Shown here in pieces: positions 1,446 through 8,930 of a DNA stretch of 64,000 nt (positions are counted from its first letter, which is position 1; each line of letters begins with the position of its first letter). This DNA comes from Salinibacter ruber DSM 13855. GTDB lineage: Bacteria > Bacteroidota > Rhodothermia > Rhodothermales > Salinibacteraceae. The notes beneath the pieces were generated by a model. It saw only the letters and a program-made list of their open reading frames with translations. It ran no database searches and was not told the origin of the DNA. The translations under genes were made by a program, and so were the position numbers. The DNA lies in assembly GCF_000013045.1 (NCBI RefSeq), contig NC_007677.1:2542001-2606000 (forward strand), read 5' to 3'.

Positions 1446-1802
1446 TCAGTCCTCCTGCTGGAATTTGTCGAGCCGGACGACCTGGGTGTCGGAGACAAAC
1501 ATCACGCCCGAGCTCTTCTCGAAGAGGGGCGTGAGGCCGTCCACGATGGTTTGAATCGCCTCCTCCTGGCCGACGGCAAAGAACATGACCAGCCCGTCCC
1601 GGTCGTTGAAGAGCAGGCGGCCTTCGTGGAAGCCGTGCTCGCCGCGGCCGGTCACGTTGTGGTGGATCGTGTACCCGCTCACCGTCGACTCGTCGAGGAG
1701 GTCTTTCACGAAGGGCTCTTTCTCCCCCCGCACGATGATTTCGATTTTTTTGAGGGGGTGCAGCGTATGCTGCGTGTCCGCGTGGTTCGTGTCGTCGCTC
1801 AT
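1446..1802 (-). CDS. PII-like signalling protein of the DAB operon
   Basis: A 118-residue protein with the beta-alpha-beta layout of PII/CutA-like trimers: LKKIEIIVRGEKEPFVKDLL at residues 17-36, a flexible GRGEHGFHEGR segment near 52-62 where PII proteins have the T-loop, a second FFAVGQEEAIQTIVDGLTP unit and a C-terminal FVSDTQVVRL strand. The ATG at 1802 is preferred to an in-frame TTG six codons upstream. It follows dabA by 51 nt on the same strand. PII-like partners (SbtB, CPII) are known beside bicarbonate uptake systems, so a role in sensing adenylates or bicarbonate and gating DabAB is a reasonable inference. The lack of a glnK-like tyrosine T-loop argues against nitrogen control. Confidence 0.7.
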   Translation of the reverse strand: MSDDTNHADTQHTLHPLKKIEIIVRGEKEPFVKDLLDESTVSGYTIHHNVTGRGEHGFHEGRLLFNDRDGLVMFFAVGQEEAIQTIVDGLTPLFEKSSGVMFVSDTQVVRLDKFQQED

Positions 1803-1853
1803 GGGACTGTGCGGTCTCAATTCGACTCTGGGTGCGATGTGCGTCTCCTGGGC

Positions 1854-4307
1854 TCAGGACGGCACCCCGGCGGACGCCGGCGCCTTCGTTGCCGTTGACG
1901 CGTCGGGGGCGGGCCGTGCGTGCCAGCCCCCGCCGGGCTTGTAGCGCACAAACGCGTCGTCCTGCTCCGGGTCCATCACCGTGAGGTGCATCCACTCGTG
2001 ATCGAAGAGGTGGGCCACGGCGGCGTGGCGGTCGAGGATGGCCTCCACCCGGTCCGTGGGCGCCTGGATGAGGGCCATGAGGCGGAGCGGCCGGTGGTGG
2101 ACGTGCTCGTCGTCGGCCTTCAACGACTGCAGGGGCAGGCCGCTCATGAGGTCGCCCCCGTTGCCCTGCACCACCCCCAGCTTGCCCACTACGTTCTGGG
2201 TTACCTTCGACCCGCTGCCGTAGGCGGCGTTGTCGACCGTGGAGAAGTAGTACTGCGTATTGATCCACTCTCCCACCACCAGCGGGCCGGTCATGATGTT
2301 TTCCAACGCCGTGCCGTCGTCGTCCGTCGCCCAGTCGTAGGAGTGTAGGAAGCACCGCCCGTCGAGGTCGAGCCCGCGCGTCAGCGCGCGGGGGCCTACG
2401 ATGAAGGCGGCGTTGCCGGCCAGGCCCCACTCCGGCCGGGTCTCCGCCCAGTCGGCCGCCCGGCGCTCCGTCTCCCGCACGGCCGCCGCCGGGCGGCCCT
2501 CGTCGACGGACGTGTTCAGGGTGCGGACCCGCTCGGTGGCCGCGTCGGCCTGGGCCGCGTGCAGGTCGCGCCGCAGGCGATCGAGCGCGTCGGGGGCGAC
2601 GGGGGGATCGTCCTCGTCCACGAAAAGGGCAATCTCGTCGGTCGTCGTGTTGTGCTGTCCGGCGAGAAAAACGGTGTCGTCCGGAATCGCGATCCCGCGC
2701 TCCCGCAGGGCCTCCTGCACGGCGTCCTCGTTGCAGATCGCGGCGAGCACGCGGGCGTTGGGCCCGCCCGGATTGCCCGCGCACGCCCCGCAATCGAGAC
2801 TGGCCTTGTACGGGTTGTTGGGGGTTTGGCTGCCGTGCCCGGTGAATACGACGACCGGCGCGAAAGTGTCCGTCCAGCCCATCAGGCGGAAGGCGGCCTC
2901 GGCGTAGAGCACCTTTGCCTCGTCGGCGAGGCCCACAGGCAGGCCGTCCTCCGCGTCCGCGTCGGCGGGGGGCGCCCGGTCCACGGTCGGCTCGCAGAAG
3001 GACGCCGGGCCCGGCAGCCAATCGTCCAGGGCCTCATCGAGGCGAGACAGCCCGGACGGGGCGAGCGTCCGCGCCGCCATGGCCGCCCCGAAGAAGCCGC
3101 CACTCCCCTCCACGAAGCCGAACACCGCCGCGACGTTCTTCTTGAGCGTCTTCAGGAGCGCGGCCCCCGCCTTCTGCAGCCGGGCCCACCAGTCGTAGCG
3201 TTCGGCCTGGGCTCGATGCGGCTCGGCGGGCCGCTCCATAATTCGGTGCTTCGGGTCCACGATCGGCGGGCAGGACTTCACCCGCTCCTCCGTGCCGTAG
3301 GGCTGATGCTGCATGGGCACCCCAAAGAACCCCGCGTAGCCGTGCGTCTCGTAGGGGCCCTGCTGCTCGATGTGGCGCCGAATAACCTCCGACCGCGTGT
3401 CGATGCAGAACACCAGCTGGGCGTCCGGGCGGCCCGCGTCCGACCCCGACGGGGTCGTCTGCTGCGTCTGCCGCAGGTCGTCCAGCAGGCGCGTGCGGTA
3501 GCTCTCCTCCCAGGCCCGCAGCCAGATGCGGGGCAGGACGGGCTGGTCGGTGCCGTTCGCCGGCAGCTCGTCGGTCCGATCCGGCGCGATGGCCGCCCCC
3601 ATCCGATCGGCGAGGGTGAGGCGCACCGCCAGGTACTCGGTCAGGGAGATGGGGTGGGCCGCCTGCCACGCCGTGTCGGCGCGGCGCGACCGCCACTTGA
3701 TGAAGCCCGTCCACCCCGGCAGCGCCGTCAGGTGGTGCACGAAGATCGGCTCCCAGCGTGCCTCCGGGTAGCTTTCCAGGACCGCCTCGAACGCCTCGAC
3801 CACAGTGCCGGGCAGGTCCGACGGGCGGCCGACGCCGGGGATGTCGCCGTCATACGGGGCCACCGTCCGCCAGGCCGCGTAGAAGCCGTCCTCCCGGTTC
3901 GGCATGGGCCAGGCGGCCTGCCCCTGATCCAGGAAGGCCGCGAGCCACTTCGTCAGCACGCGGTCGAGGGGCTGGTCGGCGGGCGCCGCGTCGCGGCCCG
4001 CAGCGTCGGCGTCCATCCGGTCCAGCAGGACCTCGGGGCGCTCCGTGATGCCGTGCTCGGCGAGGTGGCGGGTCAGCACGTCGGCGTCGATCTCGCCGTT
4101 CTCCCACGCCTGCCGGAACACCGTCGGGCCCGGATACCCACGCCCCCCGAAGAGCTGGCCGGCCTTCTGGACCGCCCGGTCGAAGGGCTGGTCCTCGAAG
4201 CCCAGGAGCGGATTGGCCGCGTTGAAGGTCCGTAGGGGCCAGAGCGGACCCACGTATTCGGCGGCGTTCTCGATGCGGGCCCGCACGACCGATCGGTCAA
4301 TGGGCAT
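1854..4307 (-). CDS. dabA: DabA, inorganic carbon uptake subunit (DUF2309, zinc beta-carbonic-anhydrase-like)
   Basis: An 817-residue DUF2309 protein. Four zinc-site residues reported for Halothiobacillus DabA have counterparts with the same spacing: Cys301 and Asp303 in FCIDTRSE, and His491 and Cys506 in TGHGSQTPNNPY...LDCGAC (15 residues apart). The family hydrates CO2 to bicarbonate on the cytoplasmic side of a membrane complex, coupled to ion flow through DabB. Its start overlaps the end of dabB by 11 nt, showing tight co-expression. Length fits the family (about 800-1000). Identification is strong; whether it supports anaplerotic carboxylation in a heterotroph or something else is inference. 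Confidence 0.92.
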   Translation of the reverse strand: MPIDRSVVRARIENAAEYVGPLWPLRTFNAANPLLGFEDQPFDRAVQKAGQLFGGRGYPGPTVFRQAWENGEIDADVLTRHLAEHGITERPEVLLDRMDADAAGRDAAPADQPLDRVLTKWLAAFLDQGQAAWPMPNREDGFYAAWRTVAPYDGDIPGVGRPSDLPGTVVEAFEAVLESYPEARWEPIFVHHLTALPGWTGFIKWRSRRADTAWQAAHPISLTEYLAVRLTLADRMGAAIAPDRTDELPANGTDQPVLPRIWLRAWEESYRTRLLDDLRQTQQTTPSGSDAGRPDAQLVFCIDTRSEVIRRHIEQQGPYETHGYAGFFGVPMQHQPYGTEERVKSCPPIVDPKHRIMERPAEPHRAQAERYDWWARLQKAGAALLKTLKKNVAAVFGFVEGSGGFFGAAMAARTLAPSGLSRLDEALDDWLPGPASFCEPTVDRAPPADADAEDGLPVGLADEAKVLYAEAAFRLMGWTDTFAPVVVFTGHGSQTPNNPYKASLDCGACAGNPGGPNARVLAAICNEDAVQEALRERGIAIPDDTVFLAGQHNTTTDEIALFVDEDDPPVAPDALDRLRRDLHAAQADAATERVRTLNTSVDEGRPAAAVRETERRAADWAETRPEWGLAGNAAFIVGPRALTRGLDLDGRCFLHSYDWATDDDGTALENIMTGPLVVGEWINTQYYFSTVDNAAYGSGSKVTQNVVGKLGVVQGNGGDLMSGLPLQSLKADDEHVHHRPLRLMALIQAPTDRVEAILDRHAAVAHLFDHEWMHLTVMDPEQDDAFVRYKPGGGWHARPAPDASTATKAPASAGVPS

Positions 4308-5736
4308 TGTACTGGTCGCGGTTGTTGAGAAGCGTGGTCGACAGGGGCTGGGCGGTGTTGCGGAGCGTCACGTAGAGGCGCGTGCTGGCCCGGTGCCACC
4401 CGCGGTCCACGGCGATATAGGCCCCGACAAAGACGGCCAGAAGCGCGCCGTGCAGCGGCGTGAGCGCCGTCGGGGCCACGGCGGAGGGCATGTCCGCGAA
4501 GAGCGCCCCCACGCCCTTGTAGACGCCGGCATACAGCACGAGGGTGGGCAGCAGGACGGCCGGGACGAGCGCGGTGCGCACGGCTGGGGAGAGCGACGTG
4601 CGCCGCACGAGCGTGCGGGTGGCGTGCAGGACCGACAGCACCACGAAGAGCGTGAGGACGGTCCCGCTGTTGAGAGCGGTCAGCGACTTGCCCGTAAGGA
4701 CGGCGAACAGGGCGCCCCCGCCAACCGCCGCGGCCGCCGTGACGAGTCCCCCGAGCGCCCCCGTTCCCGAGGCCTCGGGCCGCCCCGGCGTCGTGTGCTC
4801 CACCGCCGACCCGGCCGCAAGGAAGAGGTAGGCCTTGTAGAACCCGTGCAGGATCAGGTGGGCGATGGCGGCGGGCACGAAGCCCAGCCCGCACTGCAGC
4901 ACCATAAACCCCATCTGGGCCACCGTGGAGGCCCCCAGTTGCCGCTTCACGTCGGTCTGCACGAGCATCCAGGCCTGCCCCAGCAGCGCACTGACGCCCC
5001 CGGCGAGGACGATGGCCCACATCACGGCGGGGGCCTCGAACACGACGGGCGCAAACCGCGCGAGGAGCACGCCGCCCGCGTTTACGAGGCCCGCGTGCAT
5101 GAACCCGGAGACCGGGGTCGGGGCCGTCATCGAGGAGAGCAGCCACCGGTGGAACGGCACCAGGGCCGACTGCACCATCGCGGCGAGGAGCAGCAGGCCG
5201 GCGGCCCCCGCCACGACGAGCGTCGGGAGGGCCTCCGCGGCCGCCAGCACGCCGCTGATGGTCCACGCCCCCGCGCTGCCCCCCAGCAGCCCAAGCGCGC
5301 CCGCCAACAGGGCACTGCCCCCCAGGAAATGCTGTCGGGCGTACCGGGCGGCCGCCCGGGCCTGCGGCCAGCCCCGGACGTGCCCGATCAGGTCGGCCAG
5401 CACCCAGCCCATCGCCGCCCACGCCCCCGCAAACAGAACGAGATGGTTGGCCGCCGTCAGCACCAGCACGATCAGCGTCAGCCCGAAGAGGCGGCCGTAG
5501 AACGCGTTCAGGCGCTTCGCCCCCGCCATGTAGCGGCGCGAGAAGCTGTGCACGATGCCGCTCACGAACGTCGTCACGAGCGCCATCGCACGCGTGAGCC
5601 CATCGGCCCGCAGGAGCCCATCGCCGGCCCATTCCGGATCCGGGGCCCAGACGAGCAGGCCCAGGCTCAGGGCAAAGAGGCCCCACGTGAGGCGCGTGTA
5701 CACGAGCGGCAGGCGCGAGGGGGTAGATCGGGACAT
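4297..5736 (-). CDS. dabB: DabB, proton-conducting membrane subunit (NuoL/MrpA-like)
   Basis: About 479 residues, almost entirely hydrophobic, with 12 or more predicted membrane segments. Segments such as FVSGIVHSFSRRYMAG, SSMTAPTPVSGFMHAGLVNAGG and a Lys/His-containing ILHGFYKAYLF helix are those of NADH-quinone oxidoreductase subunit L / Mrp antiporters. The ATG at 5736 is preferred because it directly precedes the first membrane helix; the upstream 22 in-frame residues are not membrane-like and overlap the leader. No other complex I genes are near and dabA follows with an 11-nt overlap, which fixes the assignment as DabB. It would supply the cation gradient coupling that drives DabA. Confidence 0.9.
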   Translation of the reverse strand: MSRSTPSRLPLVYTRLTWGLFALSLGLLVWAPDPEWAGDGLLRADGLTRAMALVTTFVSGIVHSFSRRYMAGAKRLNAFYGRLFGLTLIVLVLTAANHLVLFAGAWAAMGWVLADLIGHVRGWPQARAAARYARQHFLGGSALLAGALGLLGGSAGAWTISGVLAAAEALPTLVVAGAAGLLLLAAMVQSALVPFHRWLLSSMTAPTPVSGFMHAGLVNAGGVLLARFAPVVFEAPAVMWAIVLAGGVSALLGQAWMLVQTDVKRQLGASTVAQMGFMVLQCGLGFVPAAIAHLILHGFYKAYLFLAAGSAVEHTTPGRPEASGTGALGGLVTAAAAVGGGALFAVLTGKSLTALNSGTVLTLFVVLSVLHATRTLVRRTSLSPAVRTALVPAVLLPTLVLYAGVYKGVGALFADMPSAVAPTALTPLHGALLAVFVGAYIAVDRGWHRASTRLYVTLRNTAQPLSTTLLNNRDQYNAH

Positions 5737-5802
5737 CCAGGGTCGACGGTCAATGCACACAATGTCGTTCGGGGACTGCTCCGTGCGCCCGGGGCGCCCC
5801 AC

Positions 5803-5849
5803 AAAGAAAAAAGACCGACACGCAGCGCCATCAGGGCGCTGAATGTCGG
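5803..5849 (-). terminator. Intrinsic terminator in the dabB leader (candidate attenuator)
   Basis: On the minus strand a hairpin of 6 bp, a 2x2 internal loop, 7 bp and a 5-nt loop (5815-5849) is followed directly by TCTTTTTTCTTT (5814-5803). It lies downstream of the promoter at 5966-5996 and 67 nt before the dabB start, so transcripts of the DAB operon must pass it. It could instead be the end of read-through from DUF2294 at 6037, but the promoter lies between them. Confidence 0.7.
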
Positions 5850-5965
5850 CCTACAGTCGTTGCACCCGCCCGGGACGAGCGTGTGCGCGGCTTGCATGCC
5901 GGAGCAGAGTCACGGGGCTGAGGAGCCGGCCCGCCCCGCGGGCGTTCCGTCTCGTCAGCCGAACG

Positions 5966-5996
5966 CAAACATAGGACCCGTCTGTGAACGGAGCAA
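5966..5996 (-). promoter_or_regulatory. Bacteroidota-type promoter for dabBA
   Basis: Read on the minus strand, TTG (5996-5994) is followed by exactly 20 nt and then TATGTTTG (5973-5966), a full match to the Bacteroidota -7 consensus TAnnTTTG with its -33 TTTG-like element. The predicted start near 5959 gives a leader of about 220 nt before dabB. No other gene-free sequence in the 5737-6036 gap was recognisable beyond this promoter and the terminator hairpin. Confidence 0.6.
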
Positions 5997-6036: not shown

Positions 6037-6429
6037 TTATCGGTTTTGCAGGGCCGCCTCCAGGTCCGCGTCGAGGCTGAACACAAAAACGCGCTCGCCG
6101 GTCCGGGCGCTGATGTCGGTGTGCATGCTCACGACGTCGATTCCGGTCTCGTCCGTCACGAGGCCGGACAGGTCCTCGCTGGAGCTCTCAATCAGGCGGG
6201 TGCGCATCTTCTTGATGAGCTCGACCCCTCCGTTCTCGTGGCTCAACTGGCGCTCCGCGGGACTCAGAATGCCCTGCAGCTTGACGACGACCAGGTTCTC
6301 GACGACAAAGGACTTCGCCTGCTTCGGCCCTCGGCCCAGATAATCCCGCTCGAACTGCGTAATGGCCTCGGTGACCGCGGCCTCGATCTGGCCTTTCGTT
6401 TTGTCGGACGGAACGGACGAGTGCGCCAT
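6037..6429 (-). CDS. DUF2294 family protein
   Basis: A 130-residue soluble protein. It begins with a helical QIEAAVTEAITQFERDYLGRGPKQAKSFVVENLVVVKLQGILSPAERQL-type layout: the GRGPKQAKSFVVENLVVV stretch near residues 32-49 and the TDISARTGERVFVFSLD end are what I recognise as DUF2294. The ATG at 6429 is taken because the conserved part starts at once; an in-frame Met 14 codons earlier is possible. The biochemical role of the family is not established to my knowledge. It lies upstream of the DAB operon on the same strand, 111 nt after the DnaJ-like gene, but a promoter separates it from dabB. Confidence 0.7.
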   Translation of the reverse strand: MAHSSVPSDKTKGQIEAAVTEAITQFERDYLGRGPKQAKSFVVENLVVVKLQGILSPAERQLSHENGGVELIKKMRTRLIESSSEDLSGLVTDETGIDVVSMHTDISARTGERVFVFSLDADLEAALQNR

Positions 6430-7319: not shown

Positions 7320-8930
7320 TTACGCGACCGGCTCCGGGTGTGCTCCGGCGCCGTTCTGCGGAACGGACACGTCGAACGCGTCCGGGGCCGGCACGATCGT
7401 GTCCAGCACGCGGGCCGACGAGAGCACGCCCGGCAGGCCGGCCCCCGGATGGGTGCCGGCGCCGGCGAAGTAGAGGTGGTCCACGTCCTCGCTCTGGTTG
7501 TGGGGCCGGAACCAGGCACTCTGGGTGAGCTTCGGCTCCACGCTAAACGCCGCCCCCTTGAGCGACTTGTAGTCCGTCTTAAATTCGCGGGGCGTGAGCA
7601 TGCGACTCGTGACGAGGTGCTCCCCGAGGTCCGGCAGCACCGTGTCGGCGAGGTACTCCTCCACGGCCTGCCGGTACGGCTCGGCCTGCTGGCGCCAGTC
7701 CACCCCGCTTTCCAGGTGCGGCACCGGCGAAAGGACGTAGAACGCGTCGTGGCCGTCGGGCGCCATCGACGGGTCCGTCTTCGTGGGGCGATGCAGGTAG
7801 AGACTGAAGTCGTCGGCCAGCTCCTTGTGGTCGAAAATGTCGTCGAGCAGCCCTTTGTACCGCGGCCCCAGCAGGATGGAGTGGTGCTCCACGTCCTCGT
7901 AGGTGCGGTCCGTCCCGAAGTACCAGACGAACAGGCTCATCGAGTAGTCCATGTCCTCCACCTTGCGGTCCGTCCACGTGTCGCGGTGCTCGGGCGCCAC
8001 GAGGTGCCGGTAGGTCCAGCCCACGTCGGCGTTGGAGACCACGAGGTCGGCGGGGATTCCCTCGCCCGAGGAGAGGCGCACCCCGCTGGCCGTCTCGTCC
8101 TCCACGAGAATCTGATCGACCTCCGCACCGTAGCGCTGCGTGACGTCGAGGTCCGCAAGGAGGTCCGACAGGCCCTGCACGAGCGAGCCGGTGCCGCCCA
8201 TGGCGTACCACACGCCCCACTTGCGCTCCAGATGTGCGATGAGCGTGTAGATGGAGGTCGTGCTGAACGGGTTCCCCCCCACCAACAGCGGGTGGAAGGA
8301 CAGCACCTTCCGGATCTTGGGGTGGGAGATGTACTTGGAGACGAGGCTGTGCACCGTGCGGTGGCTCTCCAGCTTCATCATCGCCGGCACGATGCGGAGC
8401 ATGTCCGTCACGTTGTCGAACGGCACGTGGCCGAGCTCCTCGAAGCCGACCTCGAAGATCTCTTCGCTCTTTTCCAGGAAGCGCCGGTACCCGTCCACGT
8501 CCTCCGGCGCGAAGCGGCGGATTTCCTCCACCATTTCGTCGGTGTCGCCCGTGTAGTTGAAGGCGGTCCCGTCGTCGAAGCGGATGCGGTAGAAGGGGTC
8601 GACGGGCACGAGCTCCACGTCGTCCTCAAGGTCGCGCCCGCAGAGGGACCAGAGCTCCTCGAACAGAAACGGCGCGGTGATGACGGTGGGCCCGGCGTCG
8701 AACGTAAAGCCGTCCTGCTCGAAGACGCGCGCCCGGCCGCCGGGCTGGTCGAGGCGGTCGAGAAGCGTCACCCGAAAGCCACGCGCCCGCAATCGGACGG
8801 CGGACGCGAGCCCGCCCATTCCGGCCCCAACGACGACGGCGTGGGGCGCGTCGGGCCCGGCCGGTGCCGGTTCGGTGCGCGTGTTGAGGGTGGCGTCGTC
8901 GCGGTGGGCGAGGCGGGTGAGCCAACTCAT
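7320..8930 (-). CDS. crtI: Phytoene desaturase / CrtI-type carotenoid dehydrogenase
   Basis: 536 residues. The N-terminal dinucleotide-binding motif VVGAGMGGLASAVRLRARG (residues 33-51) is followed by LLDRLDQPGGRARVFEQDGF, the classical CrtI FAD segment. The C terminus carries YFAGAGTHPGAGLPGVLSS, the bacterial-type desaturase signature. The ATG at 8930 is preferred over one 17 codons upstream as it leaves a normal short leader. It introduces double bonds into phytoene (or related substrate) at the membrane surface, an early step to the acyclic carotenoids that colour these halophiles. No crtB or other carotenoid genes lie beside it, so the exact member of the family (CrtI, CrtN or CrtD) is inferred. 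Confidence 0.85.
   Translation of the reverse strand: MSWLTRLAHRDDATLNTRTEPAPAGPDAPHAVVVGAGMGGLASAVRLRARGFRVTLLDRLDQPGGRARVFEQDGFTFDAGPTVITAPFLFEELWSLCGRDLEDDVELVPVDPFYRIRFDDGTAFNYTGDTDEMVEEIRRFAPEDVDGYRRFLEKSEEIFEVGFEELGHVPFDNVTDMLRIVPAMMKLESHRTVHSLVSKYISHPKIRKVLSFHPLLVGGNPFSTTSIYTLIAHLERKWGVWYAMGGTGSLVQGLSDLLADLDVTQRYGAEVDQILVEDETASGVRLSSGEGIPADLVVSNADVGWTYRHLVAPEHRDTWTDRKVEDMDYSMSLFVWYFGTDRTYEDVEHHSILLGPRYKGLLDDIFDHKELADDFSLYLHRPTKTDPSMAPDGHDAFYVLSPVPHLESGVDWRQQAEPYRQAVEEYLADTVLPDLGEHLVTSRMLTPREFKTDYKSLKGAAFSVEPKLTQSAWFRPHNQSEDVDHLYFAGAGTHPGAGLPGVLSSARVLDTIVPAPDAFDVSVPQNGAGAHPEPVA

Follow-up and report, generated by a model that had tools for sequence, protein, structure and literature searches.

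On the minus strand of the window, by which we mean the whole 64,000-nucleotide stretch analysed here, the gene for MpsC is followed, in this order, by a promoter, a leader RNA, the genes dabB and dabA, and a gene for a P-II-type protein (Table 1). The leader itself consists, in series, of a hairpin (P1), a core (P2/P3) and an intrinsic terminator. CO2 and bicarbonate have to be supplied in heterotrophs as well as in autotrophs, and the locus was originally predicted to carry an attenuator-like leader in front of an inorganic-carbon uptake operon, with a full-match TTG-N20-TATGTTTG promoter, a hairpin with a T-rich tail and a dabB start 67 nt further on. These three elements were all confirmed. 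Namely, the promoter pattern is exact and occurs once in the whole 64 kb, where 0.03 matches would be expected; the terminator stem has 17 bp and a single bulged base per side (-30.5 kcal/mol, z = -6.2), and TTTTTTCTTT comes next; and the ATG of dabB lies 67 nt past the T-tract. An alternative GTG start of dabB at 5802, allowed by the list of open reading frames, was dropped because the homologues agree with the ATG. The gene upstream of the promoter, mpsC, went unnamed in the original prediction. The P-II gene 3' of dabBA has a counterpart 3' of the carbonic anhydrase and sbtA genes in another genome (G370, locus L066).

Table 1. Features of the leader and of its neighbouring genes, in window coordinates
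Feature	Position	Strand	Basis or remark
mpsC (DUF2294), constant upstream neighbour	6037..6429	-	Pfam PF10057, E 2.5e-33
Promoter, TTG-N20-TATGTTTG	5966..5996	-	-35 at 5996-5994, -10 at 5973-5966; exact match
Conserved structured leader RNA, ~155 nt	5808..5963	-	whole covariance-model match
P1, imperfect hairpin with conserved internal loop	5916..5960	-	covariation in helices 1 and 2; folds
CGGC, putative 5' strand of the antiterminator helix P2a	5898..5901	-	complementarity; truncated folds versus shuffles
P2/P3 core, CAAGCCGC-[P3]-AACGACUG, aptamer-like internal loop	5854..5894	-	near-invariant in 14 RNAs; P3 covariation
Terminator stem-loop	5812..5852	-	5850-5847 (GCCG) common to proposed P2a
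U-tract, TTTTTTCTTT	5803..5812	-	sequence
dabB, first gene past the terminator	4297..5736	-	PF00361/PF00662 (Proton_antipo_M/N); ATG start as in homologues
dabA	1854..4307	-	PF10070, E 2.1e-268
P-II-type protein gene, 3' of dabA	1446..1820	-	PF00543, E 9.6e-23

Occurrence of the leader and the genes behind it

The leader is found by blastn in 17 of the 27 genomes of the family, with the alignment limited to the core and the terminator in the distant members. A first covariance model, built from 14 sequences, matches in 19 of these 27 genomes, in 23 of the 114 genomes of the order and in 5 of 296 genomes from an evenly drawn sample of the phylum, all of them within the order Rhodothermales; a second model, built from 24 RNAs, matches in 25 of the 244 genomes of the class, all in the same order, and misses one carrier (G004). 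The leader of the window, itself part of the training set, scores 145.2 bits (E = 1.6e-36 and 1.7e-36 with the covariance models). What is more, the RNA follows mpsC with great regularity: mpsC (PF10057) is present in 26 of the 114 genomes, the RNA lies directly downstream of it in all 26, and the covariance search gave no RNA match in those of the 114 that lack mpsC. The genomes are related, and counts such as 26 of 26 are not independent events. Among the carriers are Salinibacter altiplanensis, Salinivenus iranica, Salinivenus lutea, Longimonas halophila and Roseithermus sacchariphilus.

Three of the mpsC genomes were missed by the first model and carry a diverged copy in the same place (G370, 37.9 bits; G003, 30.5 bits; G004, 18.2 bits). 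G370 and G003 are inside the training set of the second model. The match in G004 (E = 0.003) is by score no better than chance, an unrelated match in L069 reaching 18.3 bits; with the second model, whose training set does not contain G004, its contig (L083) scores 46.8 bits, and G004 is counted as a carrier because of the place of its copy and of this second score. An extra weak match in G005 (L053, 27.6 bits) disappeared under stricter filters and was taken as chance.

While mpsC is the constant upstream partner, the genes behind the terminator vary. The first of them is dabB in 15 of the 26 genomes (14 by tblastn, G006 by blastp) and a second type of dabB in one (G017). Isocitrate dehydrogenase (icd) takes this place in seven (G002, G003, G004, G023, G026, G201 and G330, with G201 and G330 assigned by reading translations), a TerB/DUF533 gene followed by icd in one (G342), and a beta-carbonic anhydrase gene followed by that of SbtA in two (G263 and G370, the latter also with a P-II protein). 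In other words, the first gene past the RNA has a role in carbon metabolism in 25 of 26 genomes, the exception being the TerB-like gene of G342, for which no such role is evident. The icd in question is of a particular type: in the family, it occurs (at least 79% identity to the icd of G026) in 6 of 27 genomes and lies directly behind the RNA in five of them, while the other icd copies are paralogues of 43-48% located elsewhere. In the sixth genome (G001), whose icd starts 95 nt from a contig end, no RNA was found. The second-type dabB of G017 seems to be frame-shifted (L059, about 7525-8900), and a copy of dabA further on is in pieces.

Of the 22 genomes with dabA among the 114 of the order, four lack an RNA match next to dab (G001, where dabA runs into the end of its contig; G003; G004, counted without its dab stretch; and G333); in G003 and G004, dabA is located elsewhere and the RNA sits before icd. 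In G006 and G021, dabA is on a different contig from the RNA, and dabB still follows the RNA. No dabA was found in 6 of the 26 RNA genomes (G009, 56% complete; G330, 83% complete; G342, G201, G263 and G370). We rejected a role of the RNA as a strict regulator of DAB, on account of these four genomes and of the icd or carbonic anhydrase/SbtA genes in 10 of 26. The original prediction is thus supported as regards an attenuator-like leader, with promoter, RNA and terminator conserved and a short gap to the next gene, and is too narrow in assigning it to the DAB operon: since the downstream genes vary and mpsC does not, the RNA belongs to a locus of mpsC plus carbon genes. An exchange of DAB for carbonic anhydrase behind one leader makes sense, as MpsAB, the DAB homologue, and carbonic anhydrase complement each other according to the available parts of PMC6689103 and PMC8552792. 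A leader that stays constant as the genes behind it are swapped between DAB, carbonic anhydrase/SbtA and icd gives an exceptionally clear hint at the signal.

Structure of the leader RNA

Single-sequence folding could not settle the structure of the leader, given that the part before the terminator hairpin has a z-score of only -1.4 in the window, with 22 of 200 shuffles equally stable; in four relatives, the corresponding values range from -0.7 to -2.9. It is the comparative evidence that shows the leader to be structured. In particular, the RNAalifold consensus of 14 sequences contains 44 pairs, 17 of them with compensatory changes. In 24 model-aligned RNAs, 94.0% of the cells are paired, as against 81.2% when shuffled and 32-39% when the structure is slid, and both sides change in 36 of the 44 pairs as against 16.8 in shuffles, although such a model-guided alignment leans towards its own structure. 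This alignment (A3) omits G004 and G013, the RNA of the latter being a near-repeat of that of G014, and a stricter cut-off removed from it the partial opposite-strand matches L032 and L029 of an earlier alignment (A2). A fairer test of covariation is provided by a sequence-only alignment of the 14 combined with a structure derived from the window alone, and here 89.6% of the cells are paired, as against 82.0% when shuffled and 34-42% when slid; changes on both sides are seen in 21 pairs, compared with 12.8 in shuffles. Covariation in related genomes, which the original prediction had named as one way to judge the leader, thus supports the structure, and the terminator hairpin, on whose conservation in relatives that prediction depended, is kept, with covariation support. 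Altogether, comparison across the order leaves P1, P3 and the terminator well supported. The local P2 hairpin (GGC..GCY) is doubtful, as it is paired in just 66% of the cells of the sequence-only alignment of 14.

Two stretches of the RNA stand out by their conserved unpaired or internal-loop sequence. The internal loop of P1 has the consensus GGAGCGCC/GGCGAGCC and reads GGAACGCC/GGCGGGCC in the window. In the core, the strands CAAGC and GAYUG flank P3 and are exact in 17 of 24 RNAs; of the seven departures, five are the most diverged RNAs (G342, G201, G263, G370 and G003), and the other two are G011 (CAUGC) and G009 (CAAGU). The P3 loop carries 34-59 extra nt in three RNAs (L027, L028 and L059) and is in this sense free to vary. 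In combining a conserved secondary structure with an unpaired core that is likewise conserved, the RNA resembles a riboswitch.

Probable read-through and a candidate antiterminator

The promoter recurs at the related loci. Namely, TTG-N18-21-TAnnnT is found at -31 to -33 relative to where the RNA begins at 16 of 23 loci, as against 0.64% of random 68-nt windows. This strict pattern is missing at the remaining seven (G011, G013, G014, G017, G201, G263 and G342); the upstream region of G011 is partly N, TTGACA and TATCAT can be made out by eye with a longer spacer in G013 and G014, and in G342 the RNA begins 3 nt past the mpsC stop. At the 23 loci measured, a co-directional start codon follows the end of the RNA after 29-84 nt. 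The sequence in this way presents what is expected of an attenuator leader, that is, a promoter upstream, an intrinsic terminator and a close co-directional gene. The shortest of the gaps leave no room for a further promoter, so that the genes downstream are expected to depend on read-through, which would be the simplest route to them. With fair though by no means complete confidence, we take as the most likely reading that the RNA acts in cis as a riboswitch-like transcription attenuator of inorganic-carbon genes and is not specific to DAB. Judged from sequence, the leader probably decides whether the carbon-uptake genes are switched on.

How might such an attenuator work? RNA polymerase would initiate in the gap between mpsC and the RNA, where the conserved promoter lies, and make a leader of ~155 nt, which covariation shows to fold into P1 and the P2/P3 core. 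It would then meet the intrinsic terminator, established by sequence and covariation alike. Were the core held together with an outer helix, P2a, in which CGGC pairs with GCCG of the terminator 5' arm, the terminator would be blocked, and transcription would run on into dabBA and the P-II gene in the window, or into icd or carbonic anhydrase-sbtA elsewhere; otherwise, it would stop. A small molecule reporting inorganic- or central-carbon status may act as the effector, as may a protein, for example MpsC. If the core is needed to hold P2a, the effector would turn the genes on, yet the core can coexist with the terminator. A leader peptide of the trp type was considered and rejected: no reading frame is constant in the 24 RNAs, and such a peptide is unlikely because the spacings between their conserved elements vary modulo 3.

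An alternative structure in the leader had been part of the original prediction, and a candidate for it was found in P2a, which is short and is absent from every full-length fold. In particular, in 17 of the 24 RNAs, the 12 nt before CAAGC can form at least 4 bp with the 5' arm of the terminator, while in 2000 shuffles the figure is 5.2 +/- 1.9 of 24, with a maximum of 12; at least 3 bp are found in all 24, as against 16.6 in shuffles. When the RNAs are truncated before the terminator 3' arm, P2a forms in 16 of 24, compared with 10.4 +/- 2.0 after shuffling the 12 nt, and one shuffle in 100 reaches 16. The full-length RNAs all fold with the terminator (24 of 24) and never with P2a (0 of 24), and a P2a switch would therefore need the help of an effector. 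P2a also competes with the local GGC..GCY hairpin and, its 3' strand being nearly invariant, shows no covariation by itself. We regard it as a candidate, with modest support, for the antiterminator of a co-transcriptional switch.

The same observations may be read in other ways. The RNA could be the product of an independent gene of ~155 nt for a trans-acting sRNA, its end being the terminator, with the downstream genes served by basal read-through or an unseen promoter. This would suit an RNA that has its own promoter and a strong terminator, that forms this terminator in all of its 24 full-length folds, that stays when the downstream gene changes, and in which the very sequence of the terminator stem is conserved; we nevertheless consider it unlikely in view of the nearby co-directional start codon at each measured locus, the carbon role of the first downstream gene in 25 of 26 and a P2a complementarity exceeding that of shuffles. 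Another possibility is an ordinary terminator whose constitutive partial read-through tunes expression, the structure of the leader serving stability. While the strength of the hairpin, its predicted success in the full-length folds and the modest single-sequence z-score of the leader part agree with this, a conserved unpaired core and covariation across families exceed what a plain terminator needs, and we hold this explanation to be very improbable.

The attenuator reading receives suggestive support from outside Rhodothermales, where its layout is repeated behind the mpsC of Firmicutes. Namely, at all eight loci taken as Firmicutes (L091, L092, L094-L097, L100 and L101, at about 4340-4446), mpsC is followed by a different, riboswitch-like RNA, in which a loop, UUAAARGG/UCRGUU, lies inside an outer helix that uses the terminator 5' arm, a mutually exclusive layout. 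The motif is exact at seven of the eight, L094 having an extra A; 22 other matches to it in these genomes, as against 16 for a reversed control pattern, look like chance, and the MAFFT alignment of the motif is poor. Rfam gave no match in the six of these loci that were scanned (all except L092 and L094). The genes downstream are carbonic-anhydrase-like (Pro_CA_2) in L096 (by Pfam) and in L100 and L101 (by resemblance), and, by reading, hydrogenase-type genes in L091, L092 and L095 and 2-oxoacid oxidoreductase genes in L097; L094 stops at a contig edge. Matches to the Rhodothermales model itself directly behind mpsC, in KSB1 (33.5 bits), at two Chloroflexi loci (26.6 and 27.6 bits) and in Bin_13 (21.5 bits), are weak: an opposite-strand match reaches 26.7 bits, and just KSB1 is clearly above it. 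In L084 and L086, a second MpsC-like protein comes after the weak RNA match, past an mpsC ending near 4360, and L084 has a carbonic anhydrase further on (translations read).

The constancy of mpsC raises the question of whether its product is itself the effector, that is, whether MpsC binds the RNA and acts as a terminator or antiterminator protein for the downstream genes. The exact co-occurrence and adjacency of the RNA and mpsC speak for such attenuation with a protein effector, as does the structured RNA with a terminator behind mpsC at the eight Firmicutes loci; moreover, the available part of PMC6689103 describes an mpsC deletion in S. aureus without a growth phenotype, which leaves room for such a role. 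Against it, the Rhodothermales and Firmicutes RNAs have no evident sequence in common, and the fold search of MpsC gave no evidence for RNA binding, with a best Foldseek E of 0.019, chains interpreted as ribosomal protein uL23 at E values of 0.03 and above, and a best VIA Z of 6.6. No solved sequence is related to MpsC at E values of up to 1, and no fold match is convincing. On balance, MpsC as the RNA-binding effector seems to us distinctly unlikely. The leader may also serve as an entry point to MpsC, a protein of unknown function. Finally, one could speculate that the RNA is the founding member of a riboswitch class sensing the status of inorganic carbon, either as bicarbonate/CO2 or through a direct metabolic proxy. 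This class would be present in Rhodothermales, KSB1 and Chloroflexi supplying weak candidates, and in Firmicutes a second class of different structure would have this task behind mpsC; we put this forward tentatively, as a rather long shot.

Known RNA families and related carbon systems

That no known riboswitch could be recognised in the leader, as the original prediction had remarked, agrees with the Rfam scan. Namely, the 4227 families gave 0 matches at the gathering threshold in the window, with no hit for 6S RNA or SRP RNA, two candidates that had been considered; at E <= 10, the 461 bases round the leader gave four matches, all far below gathering; and the sole match at 14 related loci was RNase P in L064, in another part of the contig. 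On this comparison, the conserved leader represents a new family. We know of no RNA element that controls genes for CO2/bicarbonate supply, and among the matches listed in our literature search, which largely covered open-access papers, there was neither such an element nor a description of the Rhodothermales leader. A term search of the main text of RNA-discovery papers, including PMC8632094, found neither Salinibacter nor DUF2294, and in the part available of a study of sRNAs in halite communities, Salinibacter comes up solely through an antisense RNA directed at an iron receptor.

The closest likeness is to icd and icd-II, two orphan riboswitch candidates for which citrate, 2-oxoglutarate and others have been suggested as ligand, and which are likewise structured leaders upstream of isocitrate dehydrogenase (PMC8632094, in the parts available). 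As described there, they are three-stem junctions of Proteobacteria, with icd-II probably acting on the ribosome-binding site, whereas the Rhodothermales RNA has P1 and P2/P3 in series and a terminator, and also occurs before dab and carbonic anhydrase/sbtA. With terminating riboswitches, it shares an aptamer-like conserved core and a proposed outer helix overlapping the terminator 5' arm, but no class of them in Rfam matches it. As for the genes, dab operons under LysR control occur in chemoautotrophs, where the same transporter is served by a protein regulator. G333 carries a divergent LysR-type gene beside dab (translation read), and has neither mpsC nor an RNA match.

In Rhodothermales, mpsC is linked to dab, icd or carbonic anhydrase/sbtA, which contradicts a published view confining its collocation with mpsAB to staphylococci. 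The available part of PMC6689103 reports that mpsA of S. aureus is downregulated at 5% CO2 and that a weak terminator lies between mpsB and mpsC of mpsABC. The gene families are the same in the two organisms, but in S. aureus mpsC comes after mpsAB, whereas in the window it comes before dabBA, with the conserved RNA between them.
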